Origin: Bacteroidia bacterium
GTDB lineage: Bacteria; Bacteroidota; Bacteroidia; SpSt-205
Reading direction: 5' to 3'
DNA length: 47,495 bases
NCBI GenBank assembly: GCA_025057135.1
Contig: JANWXY010000003.1
Span: 1 to 47,495, forward strand
The position numbers and the translations under genes were made by a program. Shown piece after piece: positions 4,336 through 31,790 of the stretch. The notes under the pieces are model-generated. The model made no database searches. It had not been told where the DNA came from and worked only from the letters and a program-made list of their open reading frames with translations. The stretch's first letter is position 1. Each line of letters opens with the position of its first letter.

Positions 4336-4422
4336 CGAAGGCAGAGGATAATGGTATGTCTATAACAAACTCTTGCCGCTGGACGCATCCCTCGTGTTTC
4401 AAACTCTATGGGAAAAAGATAT

Positions 4423-4730
4423 AAGGGACGGGTAGTAAGCCGGATTCTGTGTCTACGCCTACATTTATCTGAGCGGCTCACCCGCTGGCTATGGGAGCAG
4501 TCATCGCCAGCTTACTTAGCCTTGCGTCAGCCGGGGGTTACCTGCAAGGGTGCTTTTACCACCCTTTTTCACCCTTACCTGCGGATGCAGGCGGTATATT
4601 TTCTGTGGCCCTATCCGTCTATCTACCTTGCGGTAGATAGCCTCCCCTTGCGGAGAGCGGCTCGCTCCCTGACGTCCGGACTTTCCTCTGAAGGCAGTAA
4701 GTCCTTCAGTGTAGGCGCCCCCGTCCCTTA
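4423..4730 (-). ncRNA. rnpB: RNase P RNA (class A), M1 RNA
   Basis: Catalytic RNA of RNase P, which matures tRNA 5' ends. Read on the minus strand, the hallmark 5' segment GAGGAAAGTCCGGAC lies near 4675-4690, and the 3' segment ACAGAATCCGGCTTACTACC near 4433-4452. The ends AAGGGACGGG (5') and CCCGTCCCTT (3') pair to form helix P1, which sets the borders at about 4730 and 4423. Length (~308 nt) is normal for a bacterial type A RNA. A T-rich stretch follows the 3' P1 strand and could help termination. The 5' border touches the stop codon of the PorE-like gene at 4731-4733, so the RNA is either made from a promoter inside that gene or cut from its transcript. Confidence 0.95.
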
Positions 4731-6743
4731 TTATTTCTCAGCAAAATCTAATCCCAATATGCGAAACTCCGCTCGGCGATTAGCTTGCTCATCTGCATCT
4801 GATAGCTCAGGATAGATTAGAGGCTGCGACTCTCCAAAGCCTATGGCAGATAAGCGACGAGGATTGATACCTTTATTGGTCAGGTACTTTACTACTGCCT
4901 TAGCGCGATTGTCAGAGAGGCGGATGTTATATTTCTCGCTCCCGTTTGTATCGGTGTGGGCCCCTATAAGAATGCGGAGAGAGGCATTATTTTGGAGCAG
5001 GGCGACAAGCTTATCCAACTCCGAAGCGGCATCCGGGCGGATGTCGTATTTATCAAAGTCAAAGTAGATATTCTGGAGCACTATCGGGCGAGCGATTTCT
5101 ATGCGATCCAAGTAGATGTCAATATCCGCTTCAAGTTCCATAGACTTCGTTGCGTCACGGGTAGAAACGGCGACTTCGTTAGCGAGATATTCAGGGGCAT
5201 TACCAATCAAACGGTAATCTTTTCCGGGTTCCAAAGTAAAACGATACCGCGCGCTCTGGTCCGTATTGAAGGTATCTATCGGTACAAGCTTACCCTCACG
5301 AGATTCATAAAGGGTTACGGTAGCAAAGGGTATAGGTAGTTTAGTAGAACCGTCTCGCACTGTGCCTTGCACAGCCAGTTCAATCTTCTGACGCAGGATT
5401 CGCTTGACCAAATAAATGTCATCCCGGCCGCGTCCTCCGGGCCTATTGGAGGCGATAAAACCTATGGTATCTTGCTTTATCCAGAATAGAGAGAAGTCAT
5501 CGTACGAAGAGTTGATTGGAGTACCGAGATTTTTAGGCTGTTGCCAAGAAGCCAAACGCCCCTCTGCGCGAAAGACATCATAGCCGCCCATTCCCGGGTG
5601 TCCATCTGAAGCAAAGTATATCGTTTTGCCATCTCGTCCCACGTGGGGATAGATTTCATTGAAAGGGGTATTGATGATTTTACCAGCATGAACTGGGGCT
5701 CCCCACTCATTCCCGACTTTCTGGGCATACCAGATATCAGTTCCACCGAGTCCGCCATCCCTATCCGAAATGAAGTACATGATGTTTCCATCAGGTGTAA
5801 GAGATGGCTGAGCATCGTAGGTAGGAACGAGTTTCTTTTTTCCTTTGGAGTTGACCTCAACCTCTCTTTTGCCTGCGATAGCTTCTATTTTCTCAAAAGG
5901 CCCCCACTCTTTCTTCTGCGGATCAAATGTGCTGCGAAATATACTGCACCCCCAGTACTTACGATATTTTCCCTGTCCGCAGATGGTATAGTACATCGTC
6001 ATCCCATCAGGGGCGATGACGGCACCACCATCATTTGCCGCTGTATTGACCTTCTTGCCGAGATTTTGAACTTTACCTACCACACGACCGAGATAAGCTG
6101 TATCACTCTTCATTTGCACCACCCATAGGTCTGAATACGTAGGCTCCCCATACTCTGGGAAACGAGCGCTACTCTGACCTCCCGTACGATGGCTGGTAAA
6201 AATAAGAAAAGTATCGCTTTTCACGACGAAAAGCGTGGGCGCGTATTCGCTCACCTGAGAGTTTACAGCCATGAGAGAACGAAGCTCATAGGCAGGCTGC
6301 TCAGCGAGTAGCTTTTCCGCAAGCTTGCATCCTTCTAACTCCACTTCCGCCTGTTTGCGCAGAATGTCTTGGGTTTTATGCCTGCGTAAAAACTCCTCAA
6401 GAGACTGCTGAGCCTCTTTGTATCGGCCTAACTTTTTCTGAGCAATACCCAAATCCAGATAAATCGTATCACTGGTTTCTGCGTTGATGGCCAGAGCTTT
6501 TTGGTAAGCCTCTACGGCTTTTTCGGTTTCATTTGTGTACCAGTAGCAGCGTGCCAGCTTGTAAGCGGCATACTGATTGTTTGCATCAAGAGCTAAGGCT
6601 TGTTTGTACAGCTCAGCGGCTTTTTCTGGGTTGCGGTAGGTATAGTACTCTTTATCGGCTTCGGCGATTAGCTTCCGAACTTTGCTGGACTGAGCGAAAA
6701 GTGTAGCCCACCCTACGGCTAATAGAGTTAGATAGCGTCGCAT
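4731..6743 (-). CDS. porE: PorE-like T9SS envelope protein: TPR, PD40 propeller, CRD, OmpA domains
   Basis: Predicted periplasmic/outer-membrane-associated protein that anchors the type IX secretion machinery to peptidoglycan, by analogy with P. gingivalis PorE, which has the same four-domain order. The 670-aa protein has a signal peptide (MRRYLTLLAVGWATLFAQ), TPR repeats (~25-150), five PD40/WD40-like blades (~175-455, for example SDRDGGLGGTDIW and ASNRPGGRGRDDIYL), a carboxypeptidase-regulatory-like domain (~470-545) and an OmpA C-terminal peptidoglycan-binding domain from residue 558 (IYFDFDKYDIRP ... GAHTDTNG). I start at the ATG at 6743 and not at 6860: only this start exposes the signal peptide, and a TATATTTG element lies seven bases upstream. 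No lipobox is visible, unlike P. gingivalis PorE. Its stop codon touches rnpB. Confidence 0.88.
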   Translation of the reverse strand: MRRYLTLLAVGWATLFAQSSKVRKLIAEADKEYYTYRNPEKAAELYKQALALDANNQYAAYKLARCYWYTNETEKAVEAYQKALAINAETSDTIYLDLGIAQKKLGRYKEAQQSLEEFLRRHKTQDILRKQAEVELEGCKLAEKLLAEQPAYELRSLMAVNSQVSEYAPTLFVVKSDTFLIFTSHRTGGQSSARFPEYGEPTYSDLWVVQMKSDTAYLGRVVGKVQNLGKKVNTAANDGGAVIAPDGMTMYYTICGQGKYRKYWGCSIFRSTFDPQKKEWGPFEKIEAIAGKREVEVNSKGKKKLVPTYDAQPSLTPDGNIMYFISDRDGGLGGTDIWYAQKVGNEWGAPVHAGKIINTPFNEIYPHVGRDGKTIYFASDGHPGMGGYDVFRAEGRLASWQQPKNLGTPINSSYDDFSLFWIKQDTIGFIASNRPGGRGRDDIYLVKRILRQKIELAVQGTVRDGSTKLPIPFATVTLYESREGKLVPIDTFNTDQSARYRFTLEPGKDYRLIGNAPEYLANEVAVSTRDATKSMELEADIDIYLDRIEIARPIVLQNIYFDFDKYDIRPDAASELDKLVALLQNNASLRILIGAHTDTNGSEKYNIRLSDNRAKAVVKYLTNKGINPRRLSAIGFGESQPLIYPELSDADEQANRRAEFRILGLDFAEK
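4742..4750 (-). promoter_or_regulatory. Possible rnpB promoter inside the porE 3' end
   Basis: Minus strand reads TAGATTTTG, i.e. TA-N3-TTTG, one base longer than the usual -7 element, and ends 11 bases before the rnpB 5' end. It overlaps the last codons of the PorE-like gene. Weak; the alternative is processing of rnpB from the porE transcript. Confidence 0.3.
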
Positions 6744-26700: not shown

Positions 26701-28684
26701 AAACGAGCTAAACGGACTGAGTTACGCCGCTCCGACTTTTCAGTGGGGATTTACCCAGAGAACTGTTACAATAGAAGCCCGAGACACCTATACGCCTTTG
26801 GGGTCTCGTCGCTTCCTTGAAAAGAATGGTAATATGCTCTCCTTGGTTGCCAGTCACACTTTGAATGCGGGATGGTGGGAAGGAGCTCGCCAACCAGGTG
26901 TTTTTATTGCAGTATTTGACCCTATGACCTTTGAACCGTTGGAGTCGGATCCGCTATTTGGAGGTTGGCGATTTTTCTGTGCGGGTTTCTGCTATCATCG
27001 TTACTCTCCTGCTTATTATCAGGTCCATATGACTACGGACGCTATGATAGATTCTTTATGGGCTGTAGTTCAGCGAGCACCGACAGGCTCGCCAGTCGTA
27101 ATTTTATTTACCGCAGGGCATAATCCATCTTCATGGACGCCTCGAATGACCCAAGTCCTCAGTGCCATAGGGGCTACTACAAATCCCTACAATCTCACTC
27201 TGCGTTCCAAAGGAATCATATTCGGAATAAAAGGTGGGATTCCTGGCACGGCTTCGGAGAACTTCTGCCCCGACACGGTATCCTGCGCTCTTCAGAAAGA
27301 ATACCAAGTCGTGCTTCCTCTGGGATGGATGCACTCTCCGCGTATCCCAAAGCCTGTGCAGTGGGAAGAAGCGTTTTTCGCCTTTGATAAACAAGGGGGG
27401 CGAGACACGATTACCATGTCTATTTATGGCATTCGGGCAGATGGTTCTCAAGATACTCTCTACCGAGAGGTACCGCAAACCAGCGTATATGACCTTCGTC
27501 CGTATAATACACCGTATCAGGAGCTTCGTCTCGTCGGGCGATATGCCAGCAATACTACTGGCACCACTCCTCAGCTGAAATACTGGTATGTGCTCGTACA
27601 ACCCTTTACAGATATCGCCATTGATCCTGCCCTTCGGTGGGTTCTGCGTCGAGATACGGTGGAGGAAGGTGAGAATGTGTCCGTAGAAATCGGACTGCGG
27701 AATCTACTTTCTGCCCGCACTCCCGATAGTGTAGAGGTAGTATTTTTGGTACAAAAAGCCTCTGGTACCTGGGATACTCTCGGATGGCAGAAATACGCAC
27801 CATTAGATGGATTGGATACCACCGTGGTCAGATTTAGTTTCTCTTCGGTAGGATTAGGGGGGAATAATCGCTTACGGATTATCGCCAATCCGCGCCCGCT
27901 TTTCGGCGAGCGCACCTTCATCAATAACCGATGGGAGACGAGCTTTTTCGTCTCTACTGATCGTATCAATCCCGTTGTAGATGTCTTGTTTGATGGCTAT
28001 CGCATACAGAATGGCGATTTAGTCTCACCCCAGCCTGTGATTACCATAGAAATAAAGGATGAAAACCGCTATCTTGCGCTGGACGATACAGCGTCGCTAA
28101 ATGTGCGTTTGCGTCGGGCAGATGACCGGAGCTTAGGCGAGCGCATCTCATACAGCTCTGGACGGCTGACCTTCACACCTGCCACACTTCCCGATAACCG
28201 CGCCAGAGCCGTATTCCGTCCAGATCGTTTAGAGAATGGCGAGTATATTCTAAGCGTGGAAGCTTTCGACAAAAAACGCAATCGGTCGGGCGCCTCTCCA
28301 TATGAAGTGAGATTTCGCATCATCAACGAAAGCTCTATCACTCAGCTCATCAACTATCCTAATCCCTTTTCCACCAGCACAAGATTTTACTATGAGCTCA
28401 CTGGCAGCGTTCTGCCTGAGGTTTTTCAGATACATATCTACACCATTACGGGGCGATTGGTGAAAGTTATAGACCTCAAAGCGCTGGGAGAGGTGCGTAT
28501 CGGGCGCCACTTGACAACCTACGCTTGGGATGGCACAGATGAATACGGAGATCGCCTGGCGAATGGAGTGTATATGTACCGCGTGATTTTACGAATGCCC
28601 GGAGAGCAGCCGATAGAACGCCGAGACGAAGGCCTGTCTTCCTATTTCAAAGGAGGTTGGGGAAAAATGGTCTTGATGCGATAG
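23738..28684 (+). CDS. porU2: PorU2-like C25-family cysteine peptidase / T9SS sortase
   Basis: Secreted gingipain-fold protein, probably the sortase that removes the C-terminal signal from T9SS cargo at the cell surface. The 1,648-aa protein has a signal peptide (MLMRLTSASLLLAYLSAQ), an N-terminal region typical of PorU (WRDGVYRVSANQLG), the C25 peptidase domain with the catalytic dyad His620 (TFGHSGAE) and Cys650 (VNGCYQGNF), then several Ig/CARDB-like beta domains, and a FlgD-like C-terminal domain (INYPNPFSTST ... LANGVYMYRVI). Classic PorU is ~1,150 aa; the longer form with the FlgD-like tail corresponds to the PorU2 type. The alternative is an ordinary secreted C25 peptidase. The first ATG at 23738 fits the promoter spacing. 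Confidence 0.85.
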   Translation: MLMRLTSASLLLAYLSAQPYTYGNEWIQTGAPYIKLILWRDGVYRVSANQLGISVSSASLRLFWRGSEVPIYVADGGDGLFSGSDYIEFVGHRNDGEPDSVAFRHSILLQRQPGIHGNPLMSLNHNDTSAYFLTWGGVNGQRLQTYTDPNVLTRPTQNWFWWRFVESFHWAGYWWGPRSYEQDNNPMYILGEGRGVGLNPLSRSYNLPGPRTDVASQFYVELSHASLTPSGTMSLEWRVGSYTAASTTVNAPYYFRPYFSIPINFLTPSLSITVSCPTSGYRGEFLHYAAVTYPRQATLGSPDTFLRIGVINPTAAPLTLVLSNVPINAGDSLLVYDMKHGYRWQAVFSGSQWYIPLPGIADTFPLYIIRGQSIQTPIVRSAIIEDYTNTSGAEVLLVTHRSLAASAMAYKQYRETHPTNPRSVLIAYTDAIYDEFGWGRVSHPLAIRNLVRWALDHWNIRPKYLLLWGDGVGLQRIGYGQTPPAFHLVPVFGYPASDWGYVSDFYGQRDIIPTIPVGRVTVQNDNEGFIYIDKLRTYESMSNPSWLKAALHLGGGSDAIEQALISSQLIACQQVFEQSPYYGQVTYYQKRTGGMQAPPGSPTIKERVDSGVVILQTFGHSGAEIFDVNFYEPVDYDNWGRYPLVIVNGCYQGNFDEIGVLSKIHSERFLLEPGRGCLWYLALSGAGFIGPLGVQTLRIYEVLFRDSINIPVGDGIVEAFRRLVNNGIGAFEYYHIAAQPLLGDPCVRLAGPTRPDLAITAGDVRVTPTEPSAEQNSFRLFIRYRNLGIAFSDSFTVQVSHRIVATGQRFTYTYRRAPFARVDSFEIVLPALVGEWAGINEIEVFVDSDDNLPNELREDNNQVRIEFFVRSPRPLALYPWPYAVINKDSIALVAATYNQSIFSPQGYYFEIDTSYRFNSPMRYQSGLVAGTTVFGRWELPFRLRDSVVYYWRVRLEGSGPQEWTTQSFQYIRGPKEGWGQSARPQFLENELNGLSYAAPTFQWGFTQRTVTIEARDTYTPLGSRRFLEKNGNMLSLVASHTLNAGWWEGARQPGVFIAVFDPMTFEPLESDPLFGGWRFFCAGFCYHRYSPAYYQVHMTTDAMIDSLWAVVQRAPTGSPVVILFTAGHNPSSWTPRMTQVLSAIGATTNPYNLTLRSKGIIFGIKGGIPGTASENFCPDTVSCALQKEYQVVLPLGWMHSPRIPKPVQWEEAFFAFDKQGGRDTITMSIYGIRADGSQDTLYREVPQTSVYDLRPYNTPYQELRLVGRYASNTTGTTPQLKYWYVLVQPFTDIAIDPALRWVLRRDTVEEGENVSVEIGLRNLLSARTPDSVEVVFLVQKASGTWDTLGWQKYAPLDGLDTTVVRFSFSSVGLGGNNRLRIIANPRPLFGERTFINNRWETSFFVSTDRINPVVDVLFDGYRIQNGDLVSPQPVITIEIKDENRYLALDDTASLNVRLRRADDRSLGERISYSSGRLTFTPATLPDNRARAVFRPDRLENGEYILSVEAFDKKRNRSGASPYEVRFRIINESSITQLINYPNPFSTSTRFYYELTGSVLPEVFQIHIYTITGRLVKVIDLKALGEVRIGRHLTTYAWDGTDEYGDRLANGVYMYRVILRMPGEQPIERRDEGLSSYFKGGWGKMVLMR

Positions 28685-28688
28685 AAAC

Positions 28689-28717
28689 TTGCATACGGGA
28701 GAAAAGTCATATCTTTG
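28689..28717 (+). promoter_or_regulatory. tRNA operon promoter (-33 TTG, -7 TATCTTTG)
   Basis: TTG at 28689-28691, 18 bases, TATCTTTG at 28710-28717. The mature tRNA-Gly 5' end is nine bases further on, leaving only a few bases of 5' leader for RNase P. It directly follows the porU2 stop codon. Confidence 0.85.
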
Positions 28718-28725
28718 CCTGCGCT

Positions 28726-28798
28726 GCGGCAGTAGCTCAGCTGGTAGAGCGCAACCTTGCCAAGGTTGAGGTCGCGGGTTCGAGTCCCGTCTGCCGCT
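28726..28798 (+). tRNA. tRNA-Gly (GCC)
   Basis: The acceptor strands GCGGCAG and CTGCCGC pair. The D-arm (AGCTCAGCTGGTAGAGC), the anticodon stem-loop CAACC-TTGCCAA-GGTTG with anticodon GCC at 28759-28761, and the T-arm (GCGGGTTCGAGTCCCGT) are all canonical. The 3' CCA is not encoded, so CCA addition follows 3' trimming. Confidence 0.97.
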
Positions 28799-28805
28799 CT
28801 ATCTC

Positions 28806-28892
28806 GCCGAGGTGGTGGAATAGGTAGACACGCAGGACTTAAAATCCTGTCGCCTGAAAAAGGCGGTACGGGTTCGAGTCCCGTCCTCGGCA
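28806..28892 (+). tRNA. tRNA-Leu (UAA)
   Basis: Class II tRNA of 87 nt with acceptor GCCGAGG/CCTCGGC and discriminator A at 28892. The anticodon stem-loop is CAGGA-CTTAAAA-TCCTG with anticodon TAA at 28840-28842. A long variable arm (CGCCTGAAAAAGGCG) and T-arm (ACGGGTTCGAGTCCCGT) complete it. CCA is not encoded. It follows tRNA-Gly by seven bases, and a start codon follows it by four. Confidence 0.97.
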
Positions 28893-28896
28893 TGCG

Positions 28897-29106
28897 ATGG
28901 ATAATTCCTTCGCAGACTTCTTGCGTCAGAAGCGTATAAACCCAGAACTATGGGCACAAGGCGAAAGTGAAATGGAACGCCGTTTGCATGAACTGGCTTT
29001 TGAGACGCTGGGTAAAGTAGTATATGAGCAGCGATATCTGTTTTACTTTAATCGGTGGCGCAAACTATATCCCCTCTTAGAAGCTTCCAATCCCTCGGGT
29101 ACTTAG
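28897..29106 (+). CDS. Small conserved Bacteroidota protein (69 aa) behind tRNA-Leu
   Basis: The start codon comes four bases after the tRNA-Leu discriminator base. The protein is charged and helical without membrane segments. It has the pattern of a small family seen next to permease genes in Bacteroidota: an N-terminal FADFLRQKRINPELW part and a C-terminal YEQRYLFYFNRWRKLYPL motif resembling the family's QKLFLIN..RRKYPL ending. I recall this family only by pattern; its function is unknown. Its 3' end overlaps the start of the permease gene by 52 bases if the permease begins at GTG 29055. Confidence 0.68.
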   Translation: MDNSFADFLRQKRINPELWAQGESEMERRLHELAFETLGKVVYEQRYLFYFNRWRKLYPLLEASNPSGT

Positions 29107-30269
29107 CCCGCCGCTTACTGCTGGGACAAGGGCTACGGCGGCAGAGGTTTATTTTCCTCCTGCAGATTAGCGCCATAGCATTAAGCAGCGGCGGCGCCCT
29201 CCTCATTCTCACGTTATCTCATAGTTTCCGTTCCGTTATCACGGATAGATTGTACGGATACTTCGGTGGGCTATGGGTGCAATACTACGCAGGAGAGCAG
29301 GCAAACGAGCCTCGCCCCATCCAGCGCTTCTATCTGAACCGTCTGAATGCGCAGATACAACCGGCTATTCACTTACCAGTATTATTAGAAAGTTCGGAGG
29401 AGAAATACGAAGGCGTACAGCTCATCGCCGTAGAGAAGTCCTGGTGGACAAATCCTCTCTGGCAAAGTAGTGTAAGCATGCCCTCTGTAGAATGGACGGA
29501 AGAAAGCGGAATCGTGCTCTCAAAGCGGCTGGCCGAACGGCTCGGCGCACGCCTCGGCGATAAAATCACGCTCATCTGGCTGGCAGAACCCCCTCGCTTG
29601 CGTCGCCTTCCCGTGATTGGACTATATGATGCGCATATTGAGGAAATAGACAGGCGTGTCGCTTTCGCCCCCTTACCCTTAGGACAGAGGCTTTTAGGAT
29701 GGGATTCTTCTCAGGTACAGATTGGCCACATATACATTCATCGTCCAGAGGCTCAAAAGGCAATCGCTGAGTCCCTCATCCAAAACCTCCCTTCATCTTA
29801 TGAGCTCGTTCCGATTCAGAATATCTTCCCCGATATCTTTGGATGGCTGGGCCTTATTGAGCAGAATGTCCAAGTTATATTAGGGATTGTTCTGGGCCTC
29901 AGTTTTTTCGCAATCGCTTCGGGTTTTTTAGTCCTACAATTTTCCCAGCGATTACGGTATGAGGTTTTGTGGGTACTGGGGGCTGAGCCGTTTCATCTAC
30001 GATATATCATTCTTCATCAAGCCATTCTCTCTGTCATGCTTGGTACGCTTATAGGGGTGATATGGGCGAGCCTTCTCTTATGGACACAGGCTAAATGGGG
30101 CTGGTTTCAACTAGACCCCGAGAACTACCTTTTATCAGCTGTACCCGTGCGGTGGCACTATAAGCCTTACTTGTATGTAGTGGGTACCGGCTTTTTGCTC
30201 TCAGTAGTGCTGAGCTGGCTGACTTATCCCAGAAAGCGAACCATACGTCTCTTAGCCCAGGCAGAATAG
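29055..30269 (+). CDS. FtsX/LolE-type ABC transporter permease
   Basis: Inner-membrane permease of the MacB/FtsX family, in which four helices flank a large periplasmic domain; LolC/LolE members extract lipoproteins for outer-membrane delivery. The N-terminal motif YLARRLLLGQGLRRQRF and first helix (~33-60) are followed by a ~220-residue periplasmic part and three helices (~275-300, ~320-345, ~375-395), matching the family. Length 404 aa fits LolC/E of Bacteroidota. The start is taken as GTG at 29055; no ATG is available upstream of the conserved N-terminus. No ATP-binding subunit is adjacent. It probably shares the tRNA-led transcript. Confidence 0.83.
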   Translation: MAQTISPLRSFQSLGYLARRLLLGQGLRRQRFIFLLQISAIALSSGGALLILTLSHSFRSVITDRLYGYFGGLWVQYYAGEQANEPRPIQRFYLNRLNAQIQPAIHLPVLLESSEEKYEGVQLIAVEKSWWTNPLWQSSVSMPSVEWTEESGIVLSKRLAERLGARLGDKITLIWLAEPPRLRRLPVIGLYDAHIEEIDRRVAFAPLPLGQRLLGWDSSQVQIGHIYIHRPEAQKAIAESLIQNLPSSYELVPIQNIFPDIFGWLGLIEQNVQVILGIVLGLSFFAIASGFLVLQFSQRLRYEVLWVLGAEPFHLRYIILHQAILSVMLGTLIGVIWASLLLWTQAKWGWFQLDPENYLLSAVPVRWHYKPYLYVVGTGFLLSVVLSWLTYPRKRTIRLLAQAE

Positions 30270-30273
30270 GATG

Positions 30274-30281
30274 TACCTTTG
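30274..30281 (+). promoter_or_regulatory. -7 promoter element of the PD40-OmpA gene
   Basis: TACCTTTG (exact), six bases before the ATG at 30288, inside the 18-bp gap after the permease stop codon. Confidence 0.75.
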
Positions 30282-30287
30282 CGCAAA

Positions 30288-31790
30288 ATGCGCAGCCTCT
30301 TAGCTGGGTTAATAGGTATAGCTTTGAGCCAACGCACCCCTCTGCCCCCCTATATCAATACGCCTCTACACGAGAGTGCCCCTGTGCTTTCTGCTGACGG
30401 ACGACAGTTGTACTTCTGGCGATTAGACGACCCCGTAGGATTTGGGGCCCAGGATATTTTTTGTACAACATGGAATGATACTATCGGAGATTTTGCCCTG
30501 CCTGTCCATTTAGGAAGCGGGGTGAATGACCCCCGCGGAAACATTCCGTTCAGCATTACACCAGATGGGCAGAACTTACTGGTATATAAAGAGTTCCGCA
30601 ACCCCCGGAATCCCTGTGAACTTGGCATATCTAAACGGCTTTCTGGTGACCTATGGAGCGCGCCTATCCAGCTCAAGATTCAAAACTTTCAAAGTGAAAG
30701 TGGCAGTTCCCTTACCGCCGCTATGGGATGGGACGGTCGCACGCTCCTTTTATCTATGAAAAGCTATGGCAGCTTAGGGGGTGAAGACTTGTATGTTAGC
30801 TTCTATAACCCCGAACAGAGGCTCTGGTCCGAACCGATGCATTTAGGGCCCATAGTGAATAGTCCCGGTGATGAGATTACCCCCTTTTTAGCCCCTGATG
30901 GACTCACTATGTATTTCTCCTCAAATGGACGCCCAGATTCCAAAGGAATGGATATTTACATGACCCGGCGACTGGATGAAAGCTGGAAACGATGGAGCCC
31001 CCCTCAACGCTTGCCTGAACCTATCAACTCTGCGGCAGAGGATTACTATTTCAAGTTCGCCGCACTCAAGCCTTCCATAGGATATTTCGTCTCAACTGAC
31101 TCCATAAACACGCTTGGTAGAGAAATCTACCGCGCGCCTATTCCTCCAGCTTTTCAGCCCAGGCCAACTGTACTTGTTCAGGGTAGAGTATTGGAGCGTG
31201 ATACTCGTCGTCCGATCCCGAATGCCGAGGTGCGGTATTATGATCTTATTGAGCAAAGGCTGGAAGGAACGGCCGTCTCTGCTGAGGGTACAGGCGAATA
31301 CCGACTTCTCCTACCGCTCGGGTCCTTATATGCTATAATCGTACTCAATCCAGGTTACTTCAGCATCAGCGAACAGATAGACCTTCGAACAGGCAGTAGT
31401 AAGAGTGCCTTTGAGAAAGACATTATCGTCGCGCCTCTCCAAGTGGATGAGACTTTTCGTTTGAATGGCTTATACTTCGATGTGGGGGACAGCACCCTCA
31501 GGCCTGAAAGCGAAGTGGAGTTAGAAAGGCTATCTTGGCTACTCAGTGACAAGCCCACCATGCGCATAGAAATAGTCGGACATACTGACAGTGTAGGGGG
31601 GCTCCAGCGCAATATGGAGCTCTCATGGCGCCGCGCAAATGCCGTTGCTAAGTATCTCATCGCACGGGGCATCCCGCAGGAGAGATTGCAAGTTATTGGT
31701 AAAGGGCCCACGCAGCCTATAGCCGATAATCGTTCTTCAGAGGGACGCGCTCTCAATCGGCGAGTGGAGTTTAGAGTACTCTCTCCGTAG
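30288..31790 (+). CDS. PD40-propeller / CRD / OmpA-domain envelope protein
   Basis: Secreted protein of 500 aa that probably tethers to peptidoglycan through its C-terminal OmpA domain (LYFDVGDSTLRPESEVELE ... GHTDSVGG ... GKGPTQPIADN). A signal peptide (MRSLLAGLIGIALS) is followed by PD40-type blades (ITPDGQNLLVYKE, LAPDGLTMYFSSNGR) and a carboxypeptidase-regulatory-like domain (VLERDTRRPIPNAEVRYYD). It resembles the PorE-like protein at 4731 but lacks the TPR part. The start is ATG at 30288 because the in-frame TTG at 30279 lies within the promoter element. Confidence 0.88.
   Translation: MRSLLAGLIGIALSQRTPLPPYINTPLHESAPVLSADGRQLYFWRLDDPVGFGAQDIFCTTWNDTIGDFALPVHLGSGVNDPRGNIPFSITPDGQNLLVYKEFRNPRNPCELGISKRLSGDLWSAPIQLKIQNFQSESGSSLTAAMGWDGRTLLLSMKSYGSLGGEDLYVSFYNPEQRLWSEPMHLGPIVNSPGDEITPFLAPDGLTMYFSSNGRPDSKGMDIYMTRRLDESWKRWSPPQRLPEPINSAAEDYYFKFAALKPSIGYFVSTDSINTLGREIYRAPIPPAFQPRPTVLVQGRVLERDTRRPIPNAEVRYYDLIEQRLEGTAVSAEGTGEYRLLLPLGSLYAIIVLNPGYFSISEQIDLRTGSSKSAFEKDIIVAPLQVDETFRLNGLYFDVGDSTLRPESEVELERLSWLLSDKPTMRIEIVGHTDSVGGLQRNMELSWRRANAVAKYLIARGIPQERLQVIGKGPTQPIADNRSSEGRALNRRVEFRVLSP

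Follow-up and report, generated by a model that had tools for sequence, protein, structure and literature searches.

What supplies the 5′ end of an mRNA whose start codon stands four nucleotides behind a tRNA? The question arises from a 47,495-nt stretch of DNA (the window, meaning the whole stretch analyzed), which is contig C47 of a 2.08-Mb Bacteroidia genome (G000) of 98% estimated completeness. On its forward strand, a tRNA-Gly(GCC) gene (28726-28798) and a tRNA-Leu(UAA) gene (28806-28892), both recognized by ARAGORN and Rfam, are followed by a gene for a 69-aa protein (28897-29106) and by a permease gene (29055-30269). tRNA-Gly, whose end was called at 28798/9, has the discriminator U28798 and then C28799, tRNA-Leu has the discriminator A28892, and neither encodes CCA. 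The tRNA-Leu junction reads CCTCGGC-A-TGCG-ATG, with A at 28892 and the start codon at 28897. The first-pass annotation had given these positions, had noted the missing CCA after tRNA-Leu and had suggested that tRNA processing creates the 5′ end of the mRNA; sequence, ARAGORN and Rfam agree with its coordinates to the base, and the sequence confirms that CCA is not encoded. The 4-nt gap TGCG (28893-28896) would then be the whole leader of the released mRNA.

The unit has a single Bacteroidota promoter, which stands before tRNA-Gly. Its -33 element TTG (28689-28691) lies 18 nt upstream of the -7 element TATCTTTG (28710-28717), and several relatives likewise have a TTG 17-18 nt upstream of TAnnTTTG. 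In F. johnsoniae this element stands 4-5 nt before the transcription start (PMC6847099), a spacing that predicts a start here at about 28722-28723. A forward-strand scan for TAnnTTTG from 28600 to 30300 returned only the element at 28710, one at 29834 inside the permease gene and TACCTTTG at 30274-30281, the next one upstream of a start codon. The latter, 6 nt before ATG 30288, is a candidate near-leaderless promoter of the following gene and sets the downstream limit of the unit as we draw it. The scan bears out the earlier statement that one promoter precedes tRNA-Gly and none lies between tRNA and gene. TAnnTTTG is present 7-10 nt upstream of tRNA-Gly in all 11 genomes that carry the 69-aa gene, and the order promoter, tRNA-Gly, tRNA-Leu, small gene is kept in every one of them.

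Judged by its conservation, the 69-aa ORF is a real gene. Ten other genomes of the family carry it at 43-74% identity, and comparison with its nearest relative gave a dN of ~0.21 and a dS of ~3.1; together these rule out a spurious small ORF at 28897. The relatives found through the protein are metagenome-assembled Bacteroidia, and from their isolate names we take them to be hot-spring bacteria. The protein has no match in Pfam or NCBIfam, nothing significant among PDB sequences and none among PDB folds, and it yields a confident five-helix model. Its distant relatives in other Bacteroidia are single genes that stand away from tRNAs. The protein belongs to an unnamed small Bacteroidia family, with an N-terminus like MTFEEYLKKKKINPEAF and a C-terminus like KKFIINQIRKEF (window copy, loci L293-L297). 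The permease shows a weak LolC/E-like resemblance to FtsX-type permeases (Pfam FtsX; TIGR02212 under cut-off). GTG 29055 is its only plausible start and gives a 52-nt overlap with the small gene; the GTG start overlaps the small gene in 11/11 genomes, a conservation that is not independent evidence because the GTG falls within conserved Trp-Arg codons.

A chance start codon beside one tRNA can be ruled out, as the arrangement is conserved in 11 genomes. The gap between tRNA-Leu and the start codon measures 4 nt in eight of these, 5 nt in two and 7 nt in one from another genus. Its first base is T in all 11 and the remaining bases vary. In the same genomes, the nearby Gly-Leu spacer (fewer than 100 bases away) can be as short as 1 nt or as long as 23 nt (Levene p 0.03). 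Because the gap stays at 4, 5 or 7 nt while its bases drift and the neighboring spacer varies so widely, what appears to be held is gap length rather than sequence.

The locus is one instance of a pattern that is family-wide in these uncultured bacteria. We surveyed stretches around tRNAs in seven genomes with ARAGORN and an author-written, phase-specific Markov gene caller: four from the family (G000 itself, G005, G003 and G011), one from another family of the same order (G012) and two other Bacteroidia as controls (G047 and G016). The first-pass annotation had suggested looking in related genomes for an enrichment of short gaps between tRNA and start codon, and this enrichment was found. Gaps of 0-7 nt made up 47/82 same-strand tRNA-to-gene junctions in the four family genomes, against 98/436 non-overlapping gene-to-gene gaps (OR 4.6, p 9.8e-10), a pooled p that overstates the evidence because related genomes, which are not independent, were treated as independent. 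Genome by genome, the enrichment p values in the family were 2e-5, 0.052 (G005, borderline), 0.0014 and 0.022. The controls had no such junction (0/34; minima 20 and 15 nt), and G012 had 4/12, an enrichment that is not significant. These counts include two hand corrections, both at tRNA-Leu(UAA), where the small gene had been missed in G000 and the discriminator placed one base off in G005, and the start choices of the gene caller are uncertain, several starts being GTG or TTG. Mis-called starts as the source of the pattern were rejected after inspection by eye of families with well-known N-termini (Dxr, Prs, L25, SecE, trigger factor and LigA). By their N-termini, the downstream genes include rplY, prs, dxr, secE, tig (trigger factor), ligA, the fructose-bisphosphatase gene and an OsmC-like gene; among them, L25 alone was confirmed by a profile.

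Comparisons of orthologous pairs are a stronger argument than the pooled test. The gap between tRNA-Trp and secE measures 2 nt in 11 of 12 family genomes, 3 nt in the twelfth and 4 nt in G012; its length is kept without its sequence, since all four bases occur at the second gap position. At 26 secE loci of other Bacteroidia, the first usable or likely start lies at least 13 nt from tRNA-Trp, with one exception that has TTG at 9 nt and an in-frame ATG 6 nt further on. This leader, together with the absence of short gaps in both controls, rules out a pattern general to Bacteroidia. dxr begins with TTG 1 nt after tRNA-Val in 10/10 genomes (loci L269-L278) and with ATG in none, and no alternative start is possible because the glycine-rich N-terminus of Dxr leaves no room for one. 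The gap is 2 nt between tRNA-Arg and rplY in 11/11 genomes, and 4, 4, 5 and 5 nt between tRNA-Gln and prs. At five of the ten tRNA-Val loci (L269, L270, L271, L275 and L277), we also observed that the upstream gene runs through the tRNA promoter and ends on a stop codon formed by U8-A9-G10 of tRNA-Val, so that RNase P cutting would remove that stop.

We also looked at promoter-led genes of the family. TAnnTTTG stands 3-8 nt before the start of 59/261, 70/302, 61/291 and 15/68 called genes in four family genomes (about 21-23%), with a sharp peak in spacing at 4 nt. In the controls, the corresponding counts are 10/302 and 13/292 (3-4%), and the element is mostly 16-60 nt away; G012 is intermediate in this measure as it is in short tRNA gaps. 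The first-pass annotation had described near-leaderless promoters in the window, and 10/29 called genes there do have the element 3-8 nt before their start codon. Given the 4-5 nt between element and start site, such genes would yield leaderless mRNAs. The promoter-driven mRNAs of the family thus seem mostly leaderless, and the lineage probably uses leaderless initiation widely. Leaderless bacterial genes are well known (PMC3160421), yet the predicted richness of this family in them would be unusual for its phylum: 5.5% of mRNAs are leaderless in F. psychrophilum (PMC9723704), and in F. johnsoniae 87% of leaders are longer than 10 nt (PMC6847099). About ten TAnnTTTG elements in G000, G005 and G003 are separated from the tRNA 5′ end downstream by exactly 4 nt; transcription may therefore begin at base 1 of the tRNA, with no 5′ leader to remove.

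The genes needed to mature CCA-less tRNAs appear to be in place. An RNase Z homologue is encoded at G000:C44:1267-2157 (TIGR02651, 278 bits against a 293-bit NCBIfam cut-off), and the family's RNase Z matches fall just under this curated cut-off. Homologues were found in 21/21 genomes searched, with only weak partial matches in G008 and G012, both incomplete. The CCA-adding enzyme domain PF01743 is present in 3/3 genomes searched, and nearly all tRNA genes of the surveyed genomes lack an encoded CCA. At the gene level, the features of maturation by RNase Z (the enzyme itself, the CCA-adding enzyme and tRNAs without CCA) are thus present. This enzyme cleaves directly after the discriminator (PMC7479834), and its predicted cut at 28892/28893 behind a CCA-less tRNA-Leu gives the putative 5′ end of the mRNA. 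A single C (C74 only) follows the discriminator in all tRNAs of G012, G047 and G016 and in all but a few of the other four genomes. This near-universal C74 contrasts with the report that cytidines at this place slow RNase Z (PMC7479834). The window itself also carries a class A RNase P RNA gene (4420-4728, reverse strand), 2 nt after a gene that ends at 4731.

We propose that the promoter at 28689-28717 would drive one transcript with tRNA-Gly, tRNA-Leu, the 69-aa gene and the permease gene, and that this transcript would be cut during tRNA maturation, by RNase P at the 5′ side of each tRNA and, directly after the discriminator or one base later, by RNase Z or a different 3′ endonuclease. The last cut would free an mRNA with a 5′-monophosphate and a leader of about 4 nt, on which the ribosome would initiate as on a leaderless mRNA. 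Such a cut would leave predicted 5′ ends at or near the start codon, 4 nt away here and 1-7 nt across the set. A tRNA left in place against the start codon should keep the 30S subunit from binding; cleavage would therefore turn on translation as well. The same arrangement would serve secE, dxr, rplY, prs, tig, ligA, the fructose-bisphosphatase gene and others in the family. We give a probability of roughly 70% to this reading, in which near-leaderless mRNAs at the locus and at the family pairs get their 5′ ends from tRNA 3′ cleavage, and the gene content and gap conservation described above lend support to the first-pass suggestion.

The main rival is genome compaction, which is real here. Short gaps are also seen between tRNAs and at convergent genes of the family genomes, whose coding density is ~92%, and compaction contributes to the short gaps at tRNA junctions because these other spacers are short too; 22% of non-overlapping gene-to-gene gaps are likewise 0-7 nt. 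If compaction were all, intergenic space would be trimmed everywhere, the gaps would have no role, and the genes would be poorly translated from RNA that is uncut or cut elsewhere. We find this quite improbable: gaps between tRNA and start are enriched over those between genes (with kinship ignored in that p), and orthologous pairs are base-exact over genus and family while the Gly-Leu spacer is not. Compaction alone offers no reason to hold a length, and it leaves the base-exact gaps unexplained; the tRNA must be excised in any case. The tRNA-adjacent genes of the family start with ATG in 23 cases, GTG in 17 and TTG in six, and the promoter-leaderless genes with ATG in 163, GTG in 42 and TTG in none. 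The richness in GTG and TTG may mean that position counts more than the codon, or may reflect a few wrongly called starts.

Transcription might instead begin at the gene itself, from a promoter of its own that lies within the tRNA gene or overlaps it, as at other leaderless genes. Leaderless promoters are common in the family, so a start at the codon would be normal, and alternative sigma factors are conceivable. A TAnnTTTG promoter hidden in the tRNA is ruled out, as none of the 47 short-gap junctions has a match with two or fewer mismatches 3-8 nt before the gene start (the best at the required position has at least three in 47/47). That position falls in the acceptor and T-arm, whose sequence is fixed by tRNA function. 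An exact element instead stands at most 30 nt upstream of the tRNA, or of the head of its cluster, at 42/47 of these junctions, and genes with longer gaps behind a tRNA often do have an exact TAnnTTTG 3-7 nt before their start. We have very little expectation that such a promoter explains the locus. Release by tRNA processing could also be real and yet involve another nuclease or another base, through a cut after the encoded C74, an exonuclease or an RNase E-like step. Cleavage was mapped between the two Cs of CCA in P. acnes (PMC3848588), and a lone C after the discriminator is near-universal among tRNAs of the seven Bacteroidia; were the cut to follow C74, genes with a 1-nt gap would become exactly leaderless. 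Against it, RNase Z is encoded, and tRNA-Leu(UAA) has T instead of C in 11/11 genomes. We think this variant rather unlikely overall, with a C74 cut one base later possible at tRNAs other than tRNA-Leu(UAA).

tRNA punctuation is established in mitochondria, and the first-pass annotation had likened the locus to it. The likeness holds in part. As in animal mitochondria, where adjoining mRNAs get their ends from tRNA excision and have little or no leader, tRNAs directly abut protein genes (47/82 junctions at 0-7 nt). Long polycistronic transcripts spanning the genome, with tRNAs on either side of most mRNAs, are not the pattern here: in a ~2-Mb bacterial genome whose many local promoters each stand ahead of a tRNA or tRNA cluster, only tRNA-adjacent genes would be punctuated and most genes are not; many have their own promoters, and cleavage is a prediction. 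In bacteria, E. coli tRNA-tufB carries a tRNA and a protein gene on a shared transcript, from which the tRNA must be excised. The tRNA-Trp/secE pairs of Bacteroidia are of this kind, but the other Bacteroidia loci keep their leader of at least 13 nt, while 1-7 nt remain here at a dozen or more gene pairs. TA-led leaderless genes, with a promoter ~10 bp before the start (PMC3160421), resemble the TAnnTTTG genes of the family in giving near-leaderless mRNAs, but an mRNA released behind a tRNA would owe its monophosphate 5′ end to RNA processing. RNase Z has been proposed to release a small RNA behind a tRNA in Nanoarchaeum equitans, and tRNA-sRNA precursors are also described in plants (PMC3491384); there too one cut makes the 5′ end of the downstream RNA, but the product is a small RNA, not an mRNA. 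We found no precedent among the open-licence papers searched for tRNA processing as a routine source of bacterial leaderless mRNAs, and a mitochondria-like arrangement has apparently not been described before in free-living bacteria.

Altogether, we lean towards the view that tRNA punctuation has become a standard source of mRNA 5′ ends in a free-living bacterial lineage. At a dozen or more genes, among them secE, dxr, rplY, prs and tig, a tRNA gene would take the place of promoter and leader, and tRNA cleavage would present the ribosome with a 5′-monophosphate leaderless mRNA. Such a system may have arisen once initiation no longer needed a leader, so that a tRNA could stand directly before a gene. 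It is mainly through promoter position that bacteria are known to make leaderless mRNAs. If the view is true, RNA processing would routinely make them here, in a phylum in which the members studied so far seldom have them, and this would be a natural bacterial parallel to mitochondrial punctuation. It becomes testable whether ribosomes initiate on 5′-monophosphate leaderless mRNAs and whether secE, dxr and rplY are expressed at a level governed by the rate of tRNA maturation. In this family, tRNA maturation would thereby be tied to the expression of essential genes.
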